Shown here one piece after another: positions 42,854-51,372 of a stretch of DNA of 64,000 nucleotides. The translations under genes were made by a program, and so were the position numbers. The DNA comes from Proteiniborus ethanoligenes. Its GTDB lineage: Bacteria; Bacillota; Clostridia; Tissierellales; Proteiniboraceae. How positions within the stretch are numbered: position 1 is the first letter of the stretch; every line of letters starts with the position of its first letter. Location of the stretch: positions 1-64,000 of the forward strand of contig NZ_FNQE01000006.1 in assembly GCF_900107485.1 (NCBI RefSeq), read 5' to 3'. The notes under the pieces were generated by a model that ran no database searches, was not told the origin of the DNA, and worked only from the letters and a program-made list of their open reading frames with translations.

Positions 42854-45421
42854 CTATTTAATTTTTTTCTCTAATAATACTAGCTCTACACCATGTACTG
42901 GAACAAATAGTTTATCTTTATAGTCTCCCTCTATTTCTGAATACTCCACAGTCATTTTAGGCATTGCTTTTCCTTTAAGGTATTTTAGTTCCTCTTCTGT
43001 CATGTTTTCTGGCGCTCCCATGTCTATCCATGCATCTACTACTGACCCATGCTCTCTATTCAACTGGTATCTTGTTATTTTATAATAGCCTGAAAGTCCA
43101 GATATACATAGCTTTACTTCCTTTGTAGGCTTGTCTTCAAAAACTAAATATCTTTGCGTGTTAGTAAGTGCAGAGGTATCTCCGCTTGAAAACAATTCAT
43201 CTAAATATGCATAGTTATAAGCTAAAACTTGAATATCTTCATCTCTTTTCGTTATTACGTATTCCTGGCCTTGTCCTATTATTCTATTTCCGAGCTTAGA
43301 CAATAGATAGTAAGCAAAATAAGATGGTTTTTTTAATCCTTCTTTGTTTATCAGCCCAAAGCCTCCATGGAAATGGGATATGCCTGCCTTAAACTCCTCC
43401 ATTATATCTGTAAATGTCCAATGTCCTATAAAATCAACATTTCCTATGTTCTCCAAAATATTGCTTATAATAAATGTGGCAGAAAAGCATGTATCATTAA
43501 TTAGATTTCGACAATATGTTGAAGCATTCCACTCTGTTATGTGAAGTTCTGGTTTTTTTATTAAATATTTGTTTATTTTGCTGTTAGCTGAACTTAAAGT
43601 GTCATGAGTGTGATTTTTATCATAATAAATCCTTTTAACAGAACCCCATATGGACATTAAATCTAAAGGTTCTTCCTTTTGTATGGCTTCAATCATTATC
43701 TCCTCAACCTCTTCCTTTGACGAAAAATCCTCTGGATAAATGTGCAGGGATATAAAGTCTAAGGGAGCATTATTGCTATTACAATAATCTAAAAAATCCT
43801 CAAGCCAGGTTCCTTCCTTTACAACCTGATGAGTAATGGAAGGACCTCCTACTCTGAATTTAGGAGAAATGGACTTTATGGCTAAAACAGTTTCTTTGTA
43901 AAAATTAAAATAGCTTTCCTTGCCACCAATCCAAAATACATATTCCAGTTCTGGCTCATTCCATACTTCAAAATACCAGGTTTCTACTTCTTTTAGACCG
44001 TATCTATTAATGCAATGCTTTATGAATTCTTTTACTAAATCTGTCCACAATTTAATATCCTTTGGCTGGGATATATTTGCATTCCACCAAAAGATAGTTT
44101 CGTCTGAGCTTTTTATCTCTGAAGGCATAAAACCTAATTCAACAAAGGGTTTAATATTTATTTTTTTAAAAAAATCAAAGAGCTCGTCAACATAAGACCA
44201 GTTGTACACTACATTACCATCGTTGCCAATATTATATACCATCATTTCATCTGAAAATATGCCATGAAACCTTATATATTCAAATCCAAGTTCGTCCTGC
44301 AGCTCTTTAAGCTGATTCTGCCAGCCTTGTCTTAGTCCCTCTGCTGCCCTGCCAAAGCTAGTTAGCTTTTTCCAATATGGCTCTAAATATTCTCCTTCCT
44401 CATTTGCCTTTGCAGATATGGTTTCAGTACTTGTAGGTGCCATATTATGCTTTTGTGCTTTTTTATCCATTAAATCTAAATATTGAAATAGGCTTTTAAA
44501 TGCAGCACTTCTATCTACATCTAAATAAGTTTTGCTCCTTACCTTTCCTATATCATGGTCCTCAGCTTTTGAAATGTAGTTTGGGTTTTCACGCTTTTTT
44601 CTGAATTCTGTAGGGGTGAGATTATATATATCCTTGAAAAGCTTATTAAAAGATTTTGTACTAGGAAATCCACTTTCATATGATATTTCTGTTATTGTTT
44701 TATCAGTGCTTGTCAAAAGCTTAACACTCTTGTCTAATCTTATATGATTTAGATACTCTTGAAATGACATTCCCATATGTTTTTTTATGAAATGCGATAG
44801 ATAGTAGAGGCTAAGATGTTCTATTTCGGCTATTTCTTTAAGAGTTATCTTACTTTCTAGGTTTTCGTTTATATAACTTATTATCCTTTGAATTCTTTCA
44901 ATGTCTTTTCTTATGAATGCAACATTTTCATTTTTCACAGCTGTATATGTAAAATGATTCATCAAATGTGAGATAAGTAAATTTACTTTACTTCCTATTG
45001 TAAACTGATAACCACTAGTTTGTTTATTAAATTCCCATACTATTTGAGCTAGATACCACCTGATTACATCAAATCTTTCTTGCTCATCTTCTCTATAAAT
45101 GAAGGATTTACAGTCAAATAACATCCTATTAATCTGAGGATGATAAGCAGTATAATGTGCTGGATTTATTTGTAATGCTAGTATTATATTATCTTCATCT
45201 GTTTTATTTGTATTGTGAATTTCATTACTATTTATCAATATTAAATCATTTTCTCTAAGCAAAAATCTTTCATTTCCTACATTTATACTTACTGAGCCTT
45301 TTAGAATCAAAAGTATCTCTATTGCATCATGCCAATGCATTTTAAAGCCATCAACGCTATGGATAAATGCTTTTACGGGAAATCCGTCTTGACTATTCAC
45401 TATTTCATATCCAAAAGTCAT
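42854..45421 (-). CDS. AraC-type regulator fused to GH39 glycosidase domain
   Basis: An 855-residue fusion. An N-terminal cupin (about 1-120, FKMHWHDAIEILLILKGS) and an AraC double helix-turn-helix (about 180-280, ITLKEIAEIEHLSLYYLSHF and ITEISYESGFPSTKSFNKLF) are joined to a GH39-like barrel (about 340-800). The barrel keeps the acid/base motif FEVWNEPELEYVFW and the nucleophile motif LHITEWNAS, as in beta-xylosidases. There is no signal peptide, so the barrel is cytosolic and could act as a sugar sensor or hydrolyse imported oligosaccharides. I chose the ATG at 45421 (GAGGAG upstream). It follows the diguanylate cyclase gene by 97 bases on the same strand. Confidence 0.9.
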   Translation of the reverse strand: MTFGYEIVNSQDGFPVKAFIHSVDGFKMHWHDAIEILLILKGSVSINVGNERFLLRENDLILINSNEIHNTNKTDEDNIILALQINPAHYTAYHPQINRMLFDCKSFIYREDEQERFDVIRWYLAQIVWEFNKQTSGYQFTIGSKVNLLISHLMNHFTYTAVKNENVAFIRKDIERIQRIISYINENLESKITLKEIAEIEHLSLYYLSHFIKKHMGMSFQEYLNHIRLDKSVKLLTSTDKTITEISYESGFPSTKSFNKLFKDIYNLTPTEFRKKRENPNYISKAEDHDIGKVRSKTYLDVDRSAAFKSLFQYLDLMDKKAQKHNMAPTSTETISAKANEEGEYLEPYWKKLTSFGRAAEGLRQGWQNQLKELQDELGFEYIRFHGIFSDEMMVYNIGNDGNVVYNWSYVDELFDFFKKINIKPFVELGFMPSEIKSSDETIFWWNANISQPKDIKLWTDLVKEFIKHCINRYGLKEVETWYFEVWNEPELEYVFWIGGKESYFNFYKETVLAIKSISPKFRVGGPSITHQVVKEGTWLEDFLDYCNSNNAPLDFISLHIYPEDFSSKEEVEEIMIEAIQKEEPLDLMSIWGSVKRIYYDKNHTHDTLSSANSKINKYLIKKPELHITEWNASTYCRNLINDTCFSATFIISNILENIGNVDFIGHWTFTDIMEEFKAGISHFHGGFGLINKEGLKKPSYFAYYLLSKLGNRIIGQGQEYVITKRDEDIQVLAYNYAYLDELFSSGDTSALTNTQRYLVFEDKPTKEVKLCISGLSGYYKITRYQLNREHGSVVDAWIDMGAPENMTEEELKYLKGKAMPKMTVEYSEIEGDYKDKLFVPVHGVELVLLEKKIK

Positions 45422-45518
45422 TATATCTCCTCTTCCTCTCTTCCCTATATTCCTCCCCATAATTATTCGTTTTTTCTTTTGTATGAAAATTCGATGTGAT
45501 AATTTTCCCTTCCAAAAA

Positions 45519-46520
45519 TTAGTCGCAGCTATCGTAGATAATAACTCTATTCTTGCCTTGTGCTTTGGCTTGGTATAAGGCTTCGTCTGCCCTCTCAATA
45601 ATTTTTTCAACTGTATCAGATACACCTTTTATTTCGGTGATTCCTGCACTGAAAGAGCATCCAATTAAAACCCCTGTCTTACTTTTAATACATTGGATAT
45701 AGCTTTCATTGTCTCTAAATCTTTCTAAAACCTTGTGAGCATTTTCTTTAGTTGTCTCAGGAAATAGGACAATAAATTCATCTCCTCCAAATCTAAATAC
45801 ATAGTCTGTAGCTCTCAGAGAAGATTTAAGTGTAGATACAAAACATTTTAAGGCTTCATCTCCTGCTAAATGTCCATAAGTATCATTTATTTCTTTGAAG
45901 CAGTCAATATCTACAAATGCAACAGAAAAAATCTTACCGTTTCTTGTATATGCATTTTTAATTTCCTTTAGCTTTCGCCATAGATAAGTTTTAGTATAGG
46001 CCCCCGTTAATCCATCTTCAACAGATAATGCTTTAAGGCTTATATATCTGGTTAATGTTCTTTCAACCCTAGCTATTAGCTCATTTTCTTCAAAGGGCTT
46101 TGTTATATAATCATCAGCACCTATTTTTAAAGCTTTTATTTTGCTCTCTGTTATGGCGCTGCCCGATAACATGATAATAGGTAACTCTGGCTCTGTCTTT
46201 CTAATTAATGCTGTAATTTCATACCCATTACTTTTGGGTAAGATTAAATCCAATATGGCAAGATCTATCTTATTTTCTTTTATTATACTGATTACTTCAA
46301 AAGGATTAGAAGAAAGAATAACTTCATGTCCTCTTTCCGTAAGGAGCCTTTCAAGTATATTCAGCATCATTACGTCATCATCTAAAATCAATATTCTACC
46401 CTTGTAGCTTAATTTGTCCTGTTCCCCAGCATTGCCTTGCAGATGGTCTTTTGTTAAAGCACTAAGTTGCTTATTCCTTTTCATAGTTAATTGTTCTATT
46501 GGTATTTTTATAGCTTCCAC
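45519..46520 (-). CDS. REC-GGDEF diguanylate cyclase
   Basis: A 333-residue response regulator that makes c-di-GMP from GTP. After a 40-residue N-terminal extension, the receiver shows LILDDD, the phospho-acceptor in LAILDLILPKSNGYE, IIMLSGS and DYITKPF. The GGDEF domain (about 175-330) has an intact FRFGGDEFIVLF active site, and RATD exactly five residues before it fits the RxxD inhibitory site for product feedback. The partner kinase is not adjacent. Its product is the ligand of the riboswitch about 9 kb away at 36288-36376. Confidence 0.93.
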   Translation of the reverse strand: MEAIKIPIEQLTMKRNKQLSALTKDHLQGNAGEQDKLSYKGRILILDDDVMMLNILERLLTERGHEVILSSNPFEVISIIKENKIDLAILDLILPKSNGYEITALIRKTEPELPIIMLSGSAITESKIKALKIGADDYITKPFEENELIARVERTLTRYISLKALSVEDGLTGAYTKTYLWRKLKEIKNAYTRNGKIFSVAFVDIDCFKEINDTYGHLAGDEALKCFVSTLKSSLRATDYVFRFGGDEFIVLFPETTKENAHKVLERFRDNESYIQCIKSKTGVLIGCSFSAGITEIKGVSDTVEKIIERADEALYQAKAQGKNRVIIYDSCD

Positions 46521-46849
46521 TTTATCACCTTCTCATTTTTTACATTTGGCTCTTGCTTTCATTTGTATAAGTATCTCTATCATATAACATAATTTTAAAA
46601 GTTCCTAATAATTTATTAAATATTTTATCATATTTTGTGAAAATTTGTTAATTTTTTTACATGTCTAAATTTAATTTATTATATTTGATAGTTTAAAATA
46701 AATCATTCCTTTTATTGCTATTACCTATGTCGTTTTTTGCTTTACTCATATAAAGAACAATTCCTTAGGCTCTCTGTTTACTAGAGCATTTACATTTTTG
46801 TGTATCTCATATATAATTTAGTCTACAATATAGTAACGAGGTGATTTTA
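46521..46849 (+). promoter_or_regulatory. Intergenic region with promoter of hutP-like gene
   Basis: About 330 bases, very AT-rich, divergent between the cyclase gene and the hutP-like gene. TTTACA (46789-46794) and TATAAT (46812-46817) with a 17-base spacer form a good sigma-A promoter for the rightward gene. The rest shows no clear element. Confidence 0.7.
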
Positions 46850-47272
46850 GTGGAAAACCAAAGTACAAATGTTGCAAAGGCTTCAATAAGGCTTGCCATA
46901 TCTACTAGAGATGAAGAAAAGTCTATTATAGAGGATCTTCATAAAAAAGGTTTTAAAGCTGCTGCTGTAAATGTTGGTGGTGATTTGATAAATTCTATAC
47001 CTAAAATTATAGAAAGAGCTTTAGTAGCTTCTAAAAAAACTGGAATTATTAAAGATTATCATGTCCATGAAGGTGCTGTGGCTGGCGCTGTTATGGAAGC
47101 TATTACTCAGGTAAATCCAAAGGCTATGGGGTTAAACTTTGGTGGGAAAATAGGTATCGCCAGATATGAGGAGCATATTAGTGTTTGCCTTTTCATAAGC
47201 ATTGGACTACTTCATCTAAATGATCTTGCTATTGGATTGGGCCATAGGTCCATACCAGTAATAAAAGAATAA
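46850..47272 (+). CDS. hutP: HutP-family RNA-binding protein
   Basis: A 140-residue HutP-family protein. In B. subtilis, HutP binds L-histidine and Mg2+ and then grips NAG-triplet repeats in hut mRNA to prevent termination. Family landmarks here are AKASIRLAISTRDEEK, VNVGGDLINSIPKIIERALV, HVHEGAVAGAVMEAI, LNFGGKIGIARY and GLLHLNDLAIGLGHRS. I chose the GTG at 46850 because GAGGTG ends 6 bases before it; the upstream GTG overlaps that site. No histidine-degradation genes are present. Directly after the stop is a triple UAG repeat and then an amino-acid-type ABC importer, its likely target. Confidence 0.88.
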   Translation: MENQSTNVAKASIRLAISTRDEEKSIIEDLHKKGFKAAAVNVGGDLINSIPKIIERALVASKKTGIIKDYHVHEGAVAGAVMEAITQVNPKAMGLNFGGKIGIARYEEHISVCLFISIGLLHLNDLAIGLGHRSIPVIKE

Positions 47273-47280
47273 ACTAGAAT

Positions 47281-47297
47281 TAGTTGTTAGTTGTTAG
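47281..47297 (+). promoter_or_regulatory. Triple UAG repeat, candidate HutP binding site
   Basis: The plus strand reads TAG-TTGT-TAG-TTGT-TAG: three UAG triplets in the mRNA with identical 4-nt spacers, starting 8 bases after the hutP-like stop. A further TAG lies at 47275-47277. Right after it, AAAAGTT/AACTTTT (47300-47317) could form a weak terminator-like hairpin. Triplet type and spacing are those described for B. subtilis HutP sites. Confidence 0.6.
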
Positions 47298-47319
47298 CTA
47301 AAAGTTTTTTAACTTTTTC

Positions 47320-47348
47320 TTGACATTTTAATGGAAAGATTATAAAAT
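47320..47348 (+). promoter_or_regulatory. Candidate promoter of ABC importer operon
   Basis: TTGACA (47320-47325), 17-base spacer, TAAAAT (47343-47348). It would give a leader of about 155 bases before the binding-protein gene. If this promoter is used, transcripts from it would lack the UAG repeats, so two modes of expression may exist. Confidence 0.5.
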
Positions 47349-47509
47349 CAATTTTAATTATTCTAAAAGTGATCCTTGGATTACACTCAGGATTACAAAA
47401 AGAATTAGTAGGTTTGTTTTTTTGTAGATAGCCATTGAGGCTAAGGGGAGTAAGGTAGGATTTAGCAGAAGACTTTAAACAAAAAATTAAAAAATTGGAG
47501 GACGGTAGT

Positions 47510-48520
47510 ATGGTAGGAAAAAAACATCTCACCAGTCTAAGTAATATCTTAGGCTTTATTTCAATTCTTATGATTATCACTTTATTATTGAGTGCTTGTT
47601 CATCTAGCAATGATTCCAAAAATATGGTTTCAATAGGAATAAGTCAAATTGTCGAACACCCTGCATTAGATAGTGCTAGGGCTGGTTTTATTCATGCATT
47701 AAAAGAAAAAGGTTATGAGGAAGGTAAAAACCTAAATTTAGATATTCAGTTTGCTCAGGGAGATATAGCCTTGACAACTACTATTGCACAAAATTTTGTA
47801 TCACAGAAAAAAGATTTAATTCTTGCTATTTCAACTCCTTCTGCTCAATCAGCACATAACTCTACTAAGGATATTCCAGTATTATTTACAGCTGTTACTG
47901 ATCCTGTATATGCAGGCTTAGTCCAAAATCCTGATGCTCCAGAGGGCAATGTAACAGGAACTAGTGACTTAAGCCCTGTAGCTAAGCAGCTAGAGCTTGG
48001 TATGACCTTAATTCCAAACACGAAAAAAGTTGGTATTTTATTTAATACCAGTGAGCTTAATTCTCAGCTACAGGTAGATATAGCTAAAGAATCTGCTGCT
48101 TTTTTAGGTATTGAAATAATCGAAATTCCAGTTACTAATACATCAGAATTTGAACCTGCTTTAAACGCTAAGATAAAAGGTATAGATTTTTTATTTCTTC
48201 CATCAGATAATTTAGTAGCTTCTAATATGCCTATAATATCTAAAATAGCCATGAATAATAGAGTGCCTATTATAGGAGTAGATGAGCCTATGATAAAAAA
48301 TGGTGCTCTTGCCTGCGAAGGACTTGATTATTATAAGCTAGGCCATCAAACTGGAATTATGGCTGCTGAGATTCTAAGTGGTAAAAGCATAAAGGATACA
48401 CCTGTTTCTATGCTTAAAGAAACCCAATTAATAATAAATGAAGATGCTGCAGAAGAATTAGGTATAAATATACCTGATGAACTGTTAAAAAGAGCTACCC
48501 TAGTGAAGGGAGCTGAATAA
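47510..48520 (+). CDS. TrpX-like ABC transporter lipoprotein
   Basis: A 336-residue solute-binding lipoprotein of the ABC_sub_bind (TrpX-like) family. It has a long signal peptide with lipobox LLLSAC, then VSIGISQIVEHPALDSARAG, AISTPSAQSAHN and VTDPVYAGLV, typical of the family predicted to bind tryptophan or tyrosine. I chose the ATG at 47510 after GGAGG with an 8-base spacer. The family's ligands are mostly predicted rather than measured. The upstream HutP-like gene raises histidine as an alternative. Confidence 0.88.
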   Translation: MVGKKHLTSLSNILGFISILMIITLLLSACSSSNDSKNMVSIGISQIVEHPALDSARAGFIHALKEKGYEEGKNLNLDIQFAQGDIALTTTIAQNFVSQKKDLILAISTPSAQSAHNSTKDIPVLFTAVTDPVYAGLVQNPDAPEGNVTGTSDLSPVAKQLELGMTLIPNTKKVGILFNTSELNSQLQVDIAKESAAFLGIEIIEIPVTNTSEFEPALNAKIKGIDFLFLPSDNLVASNMPIISKIAMNNRVPIIGVDEPMIKNGALACEGLDYYKLGHQTGIMAAEILSGKSIKDTPVSMLKETQLIINEDAAEELGINIPDELLKRATLVKGAE

Positions 48521-48521
48521 T

Positions 48522-49421
48522 ATGAATGCTTTTATCTTAGGCATTTTTATGCAAAGTCTAATATTTTCCATAATGGCAATGGGAGTATATATTACTTATA
48601 AGTTCTTGGACTTTCCTGATCTTTCCGTAGATGGAACATTTACATTAGGTGCTAGTGTATCTGCAATTTTAATTTCTAAGGGAATTAACCCCTTTATAGC
48701 ACTTTCTTTTTCTATTATAACAGGAGCCTTAGCTGGAACCATGACAGGCTTGTTGAATGTAAGGCTTAAAATAAAGGATTTGCTTTCTGGAATTTTAGTA
48801 ATGCTAGGGCTTTATTCTATAAATTTAAGAATTATGGGAAAAGCAAATCTACCTATATTTAATAATGCTACTATTTTCTCTAAAGATAGTTTAACTTTTA
48901 ATTTATTTATTGCATTAGGCTTTTCTGTTGTATGTGCTGCTTTGTTTACTATATTTTTCAAAACCAAAATAGGTTATCTTATAAAGGCTACAGGGAATAA
49001 CGAAAATATGGTAACCTCTCTAGGTATAAGCACTGGAAATGTTAGAATACTTGGTTTAGCATTATCTAATGCTTTAGTTGCATTATCTGGAGGAATATTC
49101 GCCCAATATCAAGGCTATAGCGATATAAATATGGGAACAGGCACTATAGTCATAGGCTTAGCTTCTATAATAATGGCTCATTCAATATTTAAAAATTTAA
49201 GATTATTCACTCCTAGTTTATTGTGCATTATTGGTGCTTTTCTATATAGAGCCAGTATTTCTTTAAGTCTAAGGATAGGCTTTAACCCTAGTGATTTAAA
49301 GCTTATAAGCTGTATAATTGTAATACTTGCTCTTTATTTAGGAAATAACAAGTCAGCTTTTAGATTAAAAGCCTTGCCACAGCCTAAAGCTAAAAGACAG
49401 GCAGGTGATATAAGTGCTTAA
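48522..49421 (+). CDS. TrpY-like ABC transporter permease
   Basis: A 299-residue permease with about eight helices, of the branched-chain/ribose type used by TrpXYZ systems. Landmarks are FLDFPDLSVDGTFTLGA near the start and ATGNNENMVTSLGISTGN, the loop that meets the ATPase. It starts two bases after the binding-protein stop, with its ribosome site (AAGGGAG) inside that gene, and its end overlaps the ATPase start by 8 bases. A Lys/Pro-rich tail follows the last helix. Confidence 0.88.
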   Translation: MNAFILGIFMQSLIFSIMAMGVYITYKFLDFPDLSVDGTFTLGASVSAILISKGINPFIALSFSIITGALAGTMTGLLNVRLKIKDLLSGILVMLGLYSINLRIMGKANLPIFNNATIFSKDSLTFNLFIALGFSVVCAALFTIFFKTKIGYLIKATGNNENMVTSLGISTGNVRILGLALSNALVALSGGIFAQYQGYSDINMGTGTIVIGLASIIMAHSIFKNLRLFTPSLLCIIGAFLYRASISLSLRIGFNPSDLKLISCIIVILALYLGNNKSAFRLKALPQPKAKRQAGDISA

Positions 49422-50190
49422 GTTAAATAATATATGTAAAACCTTTAATCTTGGTGATATTAATGAAGAAAGCATATTTCATGGAGTATCTTTAGAAGTG
49501 AAAGATGATGATTTTATATGTATAGTAGGTAGCAATGGTGCAGGAAAATCAACGCTTTTAAATATTGTGTCTGGAAAGCTAGGTATAGATAGGGGCAGTA
49601 TAATCTTAAATGGTGAAGATATTACTGATCAGGTAGAAAGTCAAAGATGTAAAAAAATTTCTAGGATTTTTCAGGATCCTTCATTAGGTACTGTGCCATC
49701 TATGACAGTCCATGAAAATCTATCTATGGCTTTAAATAAAGGTAAAAAGTTTAACTTTTCACTTTTAATAGATAAGAAAAATGAAAGCTTGTTTAAGGAA
49801 TCATTGAAAATACTAGACTTAGGCCTAGAGGATAAGCTGGAAGTAGATGTGTCTAAATTATCAGGAGGTCAGAGGCAATCCTTAGCCTTAATTATGTCTG
49901 CATTAACTGACCCTCGTCTTTTACTTTTAGATGAACATACTGCTGCCCTAGATCCTAAAACATCTGAAATAGTCATGGCTATAACAGATAGAATTGTTAA
50001 GGAAAAAAAACTAGCTACCCTTATGGTGACTCACAACATAGATCATGCAATAAGATACGGAAATAGATTGATTATGATGCATAGAGGTCAAATAATATTA
50101 GATGTTTCAGGAGAAGAGAAGAAAAACCTTACAAAAGAAAAGCTCCTATCCTTATTTAAGGATGTTAGCGATAGAAGCCTATTTAGTTGA
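49414..50190 (+). CDS. TrpZ-like ABC transporter ATPase
   Basis: A 258-residue ATPase. Walker A is GSNGAGKST, the Q loop is ISRIFQDPSLG, the signature is LSGGQRQS, Walker B is LLLLDEHTAALDP, and the switch His is VTHNIDHAI. The Glu-His at the end of Walker B (DEH) replaces the usual DEP. It completes the three-gene importer and is followed by a strong terminator. Confidence 0.9.
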   Translation: MLKLNNICKTFNLGDINEESIFHGVSLEVKDDDFICIVGSNGAGKSTLLNIVSGKLGIDRGSIILNGEDITDQVESQRCKKISRIFQDPSLGTVPSMTVHENLSMALNKGKKFNFSLLIDKKNESLFKESLKILDLGLEDKLEVDVSKLSGGQRQSLALIMSALTDPRLLLLDEHTAALDPKTSEIVMAITDRIVKEKKLATLMVTHNIDHAIRYGNRLIMMHRGQIILDVSGEEKKNLTKEKLLSLFKDVSDRSLFS

Positions 50191-50191
50191 A

Positions 50192-50237
50192 GCCCTTCTC
50201 AGTACGAAAATACACGTGCTGAGAAGGGTTTTTCTTT
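50192..50237 (+). terminator. Terminator of the ABC importer operon
   Basis: CCCTTCTCAG / CTGAGAAGGG, 10-bp stem plus an inner ACG/CGT pairing, followed by TTTTTCTTTT. Confidence 0.9.
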
Positions 50238-50310: not shown

Positions 50311-51372
50311 ATGCTTGAGAGAAGATGTCCTCCTTTTGCTGAAGAATATACAGTAAAAAGAGGTGATACAATTAGTAGTATAGCTCAAGAATTTAATACA
50401 ACTATTGGTGTTATTCGATTTTTAAACCCTACTATTAATATTAACCGTATCTCTGTTGGTCAGATAATTTGTGTTCCTAGAAGAGTTCCAACTCCTATTT
50501 GTCCAAATGGAACAATATATACTATAAAGGCTGGAGATACATTTTACAAAATAGCTGATGAGTTTGACATAACTGTTAGAGAGTTGCAGCTAGCAAACCC
50601 ATTAGTTAATCCATATAACCTAGTGGTGGGTCAAAAAATTTGTATACCAAAAAAACCTGCTCCTCCGCCTCCACCACCAGCTATACCTCCATGCGTTGAC
50701 GGAACTTATTACGTAATAAAGGCTGGAGATACTTTCTATAGTATAGCAAACAGGTTTAATGTAACTCTTAGAGATTTAGAGGCAGCAAATCCTGGCGTGG
50801 ATCCTAATAGTCTAGTAGTAGGGCGAATTATTTGTATCCCTAAAAAGGTAGTTCCACCTAACACTCCTCCTTGCCCTGGTGGTGCATATTATACTATACA
50901 GGCTGGTGACACATTCTTTAGTATAGCAAACAGATTTAATGTAACTCTTAGAGACTTAGAGTTAGCAAATCCTGGAGTAGACCCTACTAAACTAACTATA
51001 GGCCAAATAATTTGTATACCTAGGAAGCCTAGATGTCCAGGCGGAAAGATACATGTGGTTGTAGCAGGAGATACTTTATTTAAATTAGCACAGCAATACG
51101 ATGTATCCTTTAGAGCATTAGTAGATGCAAACCCGGATATTGATATAGAAAACCTTCGCATAGGTCAAGAGATTTGCATTCCACCTTATGAGCCTTCAGA
51201 GCTATGCCCAACTGGAAAAACTTACGTTATAATGCAGGGGGACACTCTAACTAGTATAGCAGAAAAATTTGTTGTATCTGCTACGGATATACTAAAATAT
51301 AACCCTACTATGGCTCCAAGTGAGTTTATACCTGGCAAACGTATTTGTATACCACCCGAAGTAGAAGTATAA
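50311..51372 (+). CDS. Protein with six LysM domains
   Basis: A 353-residue protein made almost wholly of six LysM modules (near residues 12, 70, 130, 192, 247 and 302), with cores such as YTIKAGDTFYKIADEF and YVIKAGDTFYSIANRF and C-terminal VGQxICIP strands. LysM binds N-acetylglucosamine-containing glycans. No signal peptide and no enzymatic domain are visible, and the linkers are Pro-rich with conserved Cys. In spore-formers, such proteins may localise to the spore coat or cortex from the mother cell, which fits the missing signal; that is an inference. GAGGTG precedes the ATG. Confidence 0.9.
   Translation: MLERRCPPFAEEYTVKRGDTISSIAQEFNTTIGVIRFLNPTININRISVGQIICVPRRVPTPICPNGTIYTIKAGDTFYKIADEFDITVRELQLANPLVNPYNLVVGQKICIPKKPAPPPPPPAIPPCVDGTYYVIKAGDTFYSIANRFNVTLRDLEAANPGVDPNSLVVGRIICIPKKVVPPNTPPCPGGAYYTIQAGDTFFSIANRFNVTLRDLELANPGVDPTKLTIGQIICIPRKPRCPGGKIHVVVAGDTLFKLAQQYDVSFRALVDANPDIDIENLRIGQEICIPPYEPSELCPTGKTYVIMQGDTLTSIAEKFVVSATDILKYNPTMAPSEFIPGKRICIPPEVEV

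Follow-up and report, generated by a model that had tools for sequence, protein, structure and literature searches.

The HutP-family protein encoded at this locus of Proteiniborus ethanoligenes is likely, in our judgement, to repress the importer operon that follows it as an RNA-binding protein activated by a ligand, blocking translation by its grip on two clusters of NAG triplets. The window, that is the whole stretch of DNA analysed (64,000 nucleotides), carries the hutP-like gene upstream of a three-gene TrpXYZ-type ABC importer (47510-50190) on the same strand (Table 1). We infer that a plentiful aromatic amino acid, most likely tyrosine, would activate the HutP-like protein, presumably a HutP-type hexamer, which would then bind two clusters of three NAGs, one around the leader hairpin and one across the Shine-Dalgarno sequence and start codon, and that occupation of the second cluster would block translation of the importer. 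In other Clostridia, the same protein may act at a leader terminator as well, its binding to UAGs covering the antiterminator strand in the style of TRAP. The broader view, which we regard as moderately probable, is that a HutP paralog without the His/Mg2+ site serves as a Clostridia-wide tyrosine-sensing repressor convergent with TRAP, the two faces of its hexamer clamping NAGNAYGG clusters in the leader and at the ribosome-binding site; it would control translation and, in many lineages, termination, and would govern tyrosine importers, DAHP synthase, symporters and aryl-CoA ligases in trans. The original prediction had already united a HutP-family protein, NAG triplets and an amino-acid importer in one RNA circuit, and had taken an importer instead of a histidine-degradation operon as the adjacent target. 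The profile matches bear out both the gene pair and this choice of target, and the circuit stands in essence; its site, read-through, antitermination and ligand detail do not.

Table 1. Features of the hutP-like/importer locus, in positions of the window
Feature	Positions	Strand	Basis
HutP-like gene promoter-like site TTTACA-17-TATAAT	46789-46817	+	Consensus scan, candidate
HutP-like protein, 140 aa, GTG start	46850-47272	+	Pfam HutP, AlphaFold2, PDB matches
TAG-TTGT-TAG-TTGT-TAG (N4 repeat), probably chance	47281-47297	+	Shuffles, relatives, spacing counts
Weak AT-only hairpin AAAAGTT/AACTTTT	47300-47317	+	Read from sequence
Importer operon promoter-like site TTGACA-17-TAAAAT	47320-47348	+	Consensus match, candidate
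Leader UAGUAG	47406-47411	+	Read from sequence
NAG cluster I, around hairpin	47425-47458	+	Tissierellales layout and alignment A2
Extra UAG	47463-47465	+	Read from sequence
NAG cluster II, across ribosome-binding site	47498-47516	+	Octamer search, start-codon conservation
Substrate-binding lipoprotein (SBP) of importer, tyrosine-type pocket	47510-48520	+	Profile and structure-relative comparison
Importer permease	48522-49421	+	Pfam BPD_transp_2
Importer ATPase	49414-50190	+	Pfam ABC_tran
Intrinsic-terminator-like site, operon end, 18 pairs	50189-50232	+	Terminator scan

The true UAG array, which the original prediction had missed, lies inside the importer leader and extends across the start codon. 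Cluster I is made up of a UAG (47425-47427), a hairpin with the stem UAGCC/GGCUA (47429-47443), a GAG (47448-47450) and, five bases further, a second UAG (47456-47458). Cluster II reads GAG-GACGG-UAG-UAUGG-UAG, with its GAG inside the Shine-Dalgarno sequence and its two UAGs flanking the AUG (47510-47512). The repeat unit of the array is NAGNAYGG, meaning NAG triplets separated by 5-nt spacers with a period of 8 nt, and two clusters of three NAGs fit a HutP hexamer with its NAG-binding faces. Cluster II is the sole exact match to the triple octamer AGNAYGGNAGNAYGGNAG in its own genome, where GGTAGNATGGTAG also has one exact match; allowing up to two mismatches, the latter gives 109 forward and 112 reverse matches (109 and 109 for the control), which we take as chance because forward, reverse and control counts are alike. 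Whole-leader folding of the window was uninformative (z -0.79), and the T-box covariance model (RF00230) has no match between 46520 and 47800 up to an E-value of 5. An Rfam scan of the window region returned four matches, each far below the gathering score, and these were rejected on score. An alternative in-frame GTG for the hutP-like gene is present at 46841.

The site had been placed elsewhere by the original prediction, at the three UAGs with 4-nt spacers right behind the hutP-like stop codon. In the classical mode, a HutP activated by histidine and Mg2+ would prevent termination there, and transcription would continue from the hutP-like gene into the importer genes. The repeat and the weak hairpin behind it do exist, and the protein shares the family and fold of HutP, but we consider this explanation highly improbable. 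The TAGN4TAGN4TAG pattern is at chance level, with two matches in the window against a shuffle mean of 1.27 (at least two matches in 38 of 100 shuffles). Neither same-genus genome (L007, L005) has it behind the stop codon of its hutP-like gene, and successive TAGs show no excess of the N4 spacing across 77 related leaders (39 cases, with 39.7 expected). A leader begun at the promoter-like site of the importer would exclude the repeat, which lies further upstream; TTGACA/TATAAT-like sequences were also seen by eye, uncounted, in many related hutP-like/trpX intergenic regions. Read-through from hutP is unlikely given this separate promoter-like site and the retention of the array at importers that are not adjacent to the hutP-like gene. 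The metal histidines are lost in all the HutP-like loci compared (see below), a terminator scan was negative in 22 of 22 Tissierellales leaders, and the layout predicts repression, by occlusion of the ribosome-binding site or, in other Clostridia, by TRAP-like termination, and not antitermination. The AAAAGTT/AACTTTT hairpin is perhaps a weak terminator of the hutP-like gene.

The repressor reading finds its regularity in the N5 spacing. Measured from start to start, successive TAGs are most often 8 nt apart in the 77 distinct leaders, with 118 cases versus 37.5 in the null. On the sense strand of 79 hutP-like to trpX intergenic regions (18 from relatives and 61 from named genomes, the same species sometimes being fetched twice) TAG occurs 1003 times, versus 229 times for its complement CTA. 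Dinucleotide shuffles of these regions yield a mean z of only 1.8, since the UAGs also raise the frequencies of TA and AG, and because of this blunting we rely on the spacing, on the asymmetry between the strands and on the comparison with control orthologs.

Both clusters are conserved. Among Tissierellales, the order UAG-N1-hairpin-N4-NAG-N5-UAG is found in 21 of 22 distinct leaders (mean 1.6 and maximum 5 of 22 when the triplets are fixed and the rest permuted), the only exception being a same-genus genome (G002, L153). The stem UAGCC/GGCUA is identical in 15 of the 21, and variants with preserved pairing are UGGUC/GACCA, seen once, and UGCC/GGCA, seen twice; the putative hairpin is spliced into a 5-nt spacer of the array. 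Around the start codon, the upstream UAG is present in 70 of 76 distinct importer genes and both flanking UAGs in 65, while six have neither (the minus-strand paralog L009, L016, L021, L064, L086 and L105). The last of these belongs to Fusobacterium mortiferum, outside the Clostridia; its HutP-like/importer pair, which looks like a horizontal transfer, has a UAG-rich leader array and a terminator, and the start-codon motif is absent. Of three tandem trpX-type SBP genes in Clostridium bovifaecis (L186, L189, L191), two carry the start-motif UAG that precedes the start codon and the third lacks it.

The mark at the importer start follows the HutP-like gene even when the two are apart. A trpX-type gene lies within 900 bp after 18 of the 20 HutP-like genes found in 60 relatives, and after 61 of 80 named HutP-like loci. 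The genomes of 12 of the 21 loci without a directly following trpX were searched; four gave no match and eight have a trpX-type gene, which bears the mark in seven (G002, G018, G060, G061, G064, G065 and G066) and lacks it in Thermoanaerobacterium (G069, trpX L187). The marked importer is 3.5 kb from the hutP-like gene in G066, about 5.5 kb in G065 and, on the opposite strand, in G060, 10 kb in G002 and about 0.8 Mb in G064, and on a different contig in G018 and G061. None of the 14 trpX-type genes from HutP-like-negative genomes of the 60-relative set has the mark (the divergence of these control orthologs is unmatched to the test set, and three of their genomes, G020, G053 and G058, have only a lower-scoring HutP). 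It is likewise missing from all six second trpX-type copies counted in HutP-like-positive genomes (L168, L190, L192, L195, L196, L197), which remained from 20 paralog stretches fetched after 14 without a usable gene start were left uncounted; G064 has one of two copies marked and G066 two of three. The exact motif GAGGANGGTAGNATGGTAG occurs in 15 of the 60 relatives, always at a trpX start and always together with a HutP-like gene.

T-boxes read uncharged tRNA. Rfam scans found one at 11 of 16 unmarked loci and gave no T-box at 12 loci that bear UAGs or octamers. Among the former is the second trpX-type gene of P. ethanoligenes itself (L192, G000:C44:3300-4100), whose T-box leader scores 126 bits with a specifier that reads UUC (Phe) by eye; each of the two importer paralogs in this genome thus seems to have its own kind of RNA control.

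Across the class, 95 of 291 genomes have a match to the HutP-like profile (A1, E up to 1e-10). The exact motif GGANGGTAGNATGGTAG is present in 21 of the 291, and 20 of these 21 carry the HutP-like gene. A triple octamer occurs in 50 of the 95 genomes with the gene versus 15 of the 196 without it (p 4e-17), while a reversed-pattern control shows no significant association (8/95 versus 8/196, p 0.11); as the genomes are related, these p-values overstate independence. The exact triple octamer is lacking in 45 of the 95 HutP-like-positive genomes. Six of the 15 octamer-positive, HutP-like-negative genomes fall in families with HutP-like members (f33, f57, f59), so that missed or lost genes may account for part of the exceptions, and one of the 15 (G335) has the longer exact motif too.

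This co-occurrence bears on whether the array could be read by another protein, a TRAP-like ring or some other binder, with the hutP-like gene as a mere neighbour. Triplets over the importer ribosome-binding site that also overlap an antiterminator are indeed the architecture of TRAP as outlined in the available part of PMC4347634. We find it quite unlikely nonetheless: from genome to genome the array goes with the HutP-like gene, whether or not the two are neighbours; TRAP (PF02081) has no match in the P. ethanoligenes genome (99.8% complete), the B. subtilis control being positive; the spacers are of five nucleotides versus two in TRAP, according to the title of a reference in PMC4347634; and it is the HutP family for which binding to clusters of three NAGs is reported (PMC7430163, available part).

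The HutP-like protein is a HutP in fold and family from which the known His/Mg2+ site is gone. It matches Pfam HutP (PF09021) over residues 8-133 with 158 bits (cut-off 25). A profile search of PDB sequences (A1) gave only sub-threshold HutP matches (E 0.14), and a fold search was used instead: with the AlphaFold2 model (pLDDT 90.8), Foldseek retrieves 1vea (E 1.6e-9, TM 0.79) and a total of 11 PDB matches with E below 0.001, all of them HutP, the best non-HutP match having an E of 7.5e-3. At the positions of the metal-binding residues of HutP, which we take to be, in role and numbering, His73, His77 and His138, there is Gly, Gly and Asp or Glu in 100 of 100 HutP-like loci (including a few same genes fetched twice), versus three histidines in 11 of 11 classical HutPs. 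The loss of this site counts against the classical histidine/Mg2+ mode. The classical HutPs, B. subtilis HutP and one from P. ethanoligenes itself (L002, G000:C43:3765-4151) included, form their own clade with a support of 1.0 (FastTree, midpoint root). L002 has all three metal histidines; its neighbours are an M42-type peptidase, named by eye, and a distant ABC-ATPase match, with no hut genes in the 3.4 kb seen.

The SBP of the importer scores 302.5 bits against the TrpX model NF041285, below the curated cut-off of 390, and its best-scoring solved relative is CD0873 (304 bits). The tyrosine specificity of CD0873 has been attributed to Glu263, with Tyr279 excluding tryptophan, and the tryptophan-binding SP1069 has Ala and Gln at these two positions (PMC6816091, available part). 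The window SBP has Asp and Tyr there, and Glu or Asp plus Tyr or Phe is found in 78 of 78 distinct SBPs with the upstream UAG (55 EY, 21 DY, 2 EF), a pocket of the tyrosine type, not of the tryptophan type, that favours tyrosine as the imported ligand. The EY pocket is also present in 14 of 21 SBPs without the upstream UAG. T-box specifiers read by eye at unmarked paralogs are UAC (L172), UUC (L190, L192, L195, L197) and UGG (L168, whose SBP pocket differs); given the UUC specifiers, one of them at an unmarked gene with an EY-type pocket (L190), phenylalanine is a possible ligand as well.

In the window leader, the translational mode appears to be the only one visible. Elsewhere, an intrinsic terminator (dG -7 or lower) stands between the array and the ribosome-binding site in 39 of 54 non-Tissierellales leaders, the shuffle mean being 1.4 and the maximum 4. 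Many of these leaders have a candidate antiterminator strand, for example GUAGGAGA, which contains UAG and could pair with the 5' arm of the terminator, and a TAGGAGA-like string occurs in 20 of the 54. A loose scan finds such pairing in 45 of the 54 leaders, which makes it a suggestion, for the terminators have a control and pairing strength does not.

The same protein at the same site could conceivably activate instead of repress, opening the leader or making the mRNA more stable in the presence of the amino acid, to serve catabolism, as HutP does for hut. HutP is after all an activator, and PaaK-like and AMP-binding CoA ligases among the targets look catabolic. We judge activation unlikely: cluster II covers the Shine-Dalgarno sequence and the start codon, the possible antiterminator strand of the leader overlaps UAGs, and DAHP synthase, also a target, is biosynthetic.

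For the repressor that we favour, the theme common to the octamer targets is, judging from the gene families that carry the array, aromatic amino acids. Octamer-marked trpX genes were named by BLAST (L217-L223) or by eye (L334, L337, L338, L340), and octamer-marked DAHP synthases by TIGR01361 (L335, 421 bits) or by ortholog search (L339, L341, L342), L313 being probably another. Further octamer-marked genes in HutP-like genomes encode sodium:solute symporters, for which we predict aromatic substrates, permeases of the lactate-permease family and AMP-binding CoA ligases, these last two groups being not obviously aromatic, and one PaaK-like ligase that scores under the curated cut-off. Family scans covered one representative per target group, or two for the permeases (L214, L229, L335, L346, L106, L109, L343 and L347 were scanned), and the remaining members were named by eye or by the symporter and DAHP synthase searches; triple-octamer matches with an unjudged downstream gene (L303, L307, L309, L314, L315, L322, L323, L333, L345) are left out of the targets. 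In a separate, deeper HutP-like clade, the gene adjoins an AroH chorismate mutase (L106, L109). At L109, trpE also stands beside the HutP-like gene, as do trpG and trpD by eye.

Two of these groups allow orthologs to be compared. A double octamer or more is found at symporter starts in 29 of 41 HutP-like-positive genomes versus 0 of 28 negative ones. This criterion was chosen after the output of the strict two-UAG start mark (1 of the 41 positives; the array there usually stops upstream of the start codon) and is no independent prediction; the triple-octamer and DAHP tests came later. The 41 positives checked are from 47 HutP-like-positive genomes with a symporter match, and the six left out (G105, G132, G193, G238, G258, G299) all carry the exact motif, so that their omission counts against the reading. 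The 28 negatives, among the best 30 loci, come from 81 genomes and are nearer to the query than many positives; L298 had no match, L250 and L302 are one place counted once, and G335 is in neither group. The octamer array was seen at the symporter starts L224, L225, L227-L232, L308, L316, L317 and L330-L332, in genomes that all have a HutP-like match except those of L230 (G335) and L332 (G107). In DAHP synthase leaders, octamers are present in 15 of 27 HutP-like-positive cases versus 1 of 23 negative ones (the exception is G233), a set formed by the best 30 loci (27 positive, 3 negative) and 20 chosen negatives, in which G081 is counted twice and L379 has only 110 bases.

That the array might simply reflect base composition, UAG stop codons or a protein start conserved as MVG/MVA is the explanation we find hardest to credit. 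The AUGGUAG part of the motif is coding, it is true, but the upstream UAG and the leader array are non-coding, the sense/antisense ratio of TAG is 1003:229, the reversed pattern lacks significant association, and orthologs without a HutP-like gene keep the array in only 0/14, 0/28 and 1/23 cases.

The system proposed here has to be compared with several known ones. HutP recognises clusters of three NAG triplets, as stated in the available part of PMC7430163. With the hut antiterminator of B. subtilis, the protein shares the Pfam family, the predicted fold and the clusters of three NAGs; it differs in its separate clade, in the Gly/Gly/(Asp or Glu) that replaces the metal histidines, in the N5 spacing, in the aromatic-amino-acid targets and in the repressor layout. 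B. subtilis TRAP has NAG triplets over the ribosome-binding site of a tryptophan transporter gene and, in a second mode, favours a terminator over an antiterminator (PMC4347634, available part). Triplets on a transporter ribosome-binding site and a terminator mode are thus common to both (trpP/yhaG and the trp leader in B. subtilis), whereas the protein families are unrelated, and three-plus-three triplets with 5-nt spacers contrast with the 9-11 NAG repeats and ~2-nt spacers of TRAP. The trpX gene of Streptococcus suis is under T-box control (PMC9382623, available part), which amounts to the same importer family with RNA-level amino-acid feedback; the window leader differs in carrying a NAG array and no T-box match. 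The window SBP resembles CD0873, the tyrosine-binding lipoprotein of Clostridioides difficile, in having an acidic residue plus Tyr at the selectivity positions, and departs from it by an Asp in place of Glu263, as do 21 of the 78 marked SBPs. Searches of the open-licence literature gave no account of aromatic metabolism being under the control of HutP relatives. The HutP fold and its reading of NAGs are known, while the ligand class, the spacing rule, the sign of regulation, the regulon and its spread appear to be new.

HutP itself is known as a single-operon antiterminator. If our reading is true, much of the wider HutP family in Clostridia (95 of the 291 genomes) would be a TRAP-like aromatic-amino-acid regulator made from another fold, and would represent a second, independent solution to the metabolite-dependent reading of NAG triplets. 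It would also mean that ligand site and sign of regulation can switch within one family, and, for many anaerobes, would name the regulator and the operator behind the import of aromatic acids and behind the step by which aromatic synthesis begins. The regularity of the operator makes the proposal directly testable and usable for finding further targets.

On either side of the locus, the window holds two other genes of some interest, both described by eye: an AraC-type regulator apparently fused to a glycoside-hydrolase-like domain, on the minus strand (42854-45625), and, directly 3' of the importer terminator, a protein with repeated LysM-like units (50311-51372).
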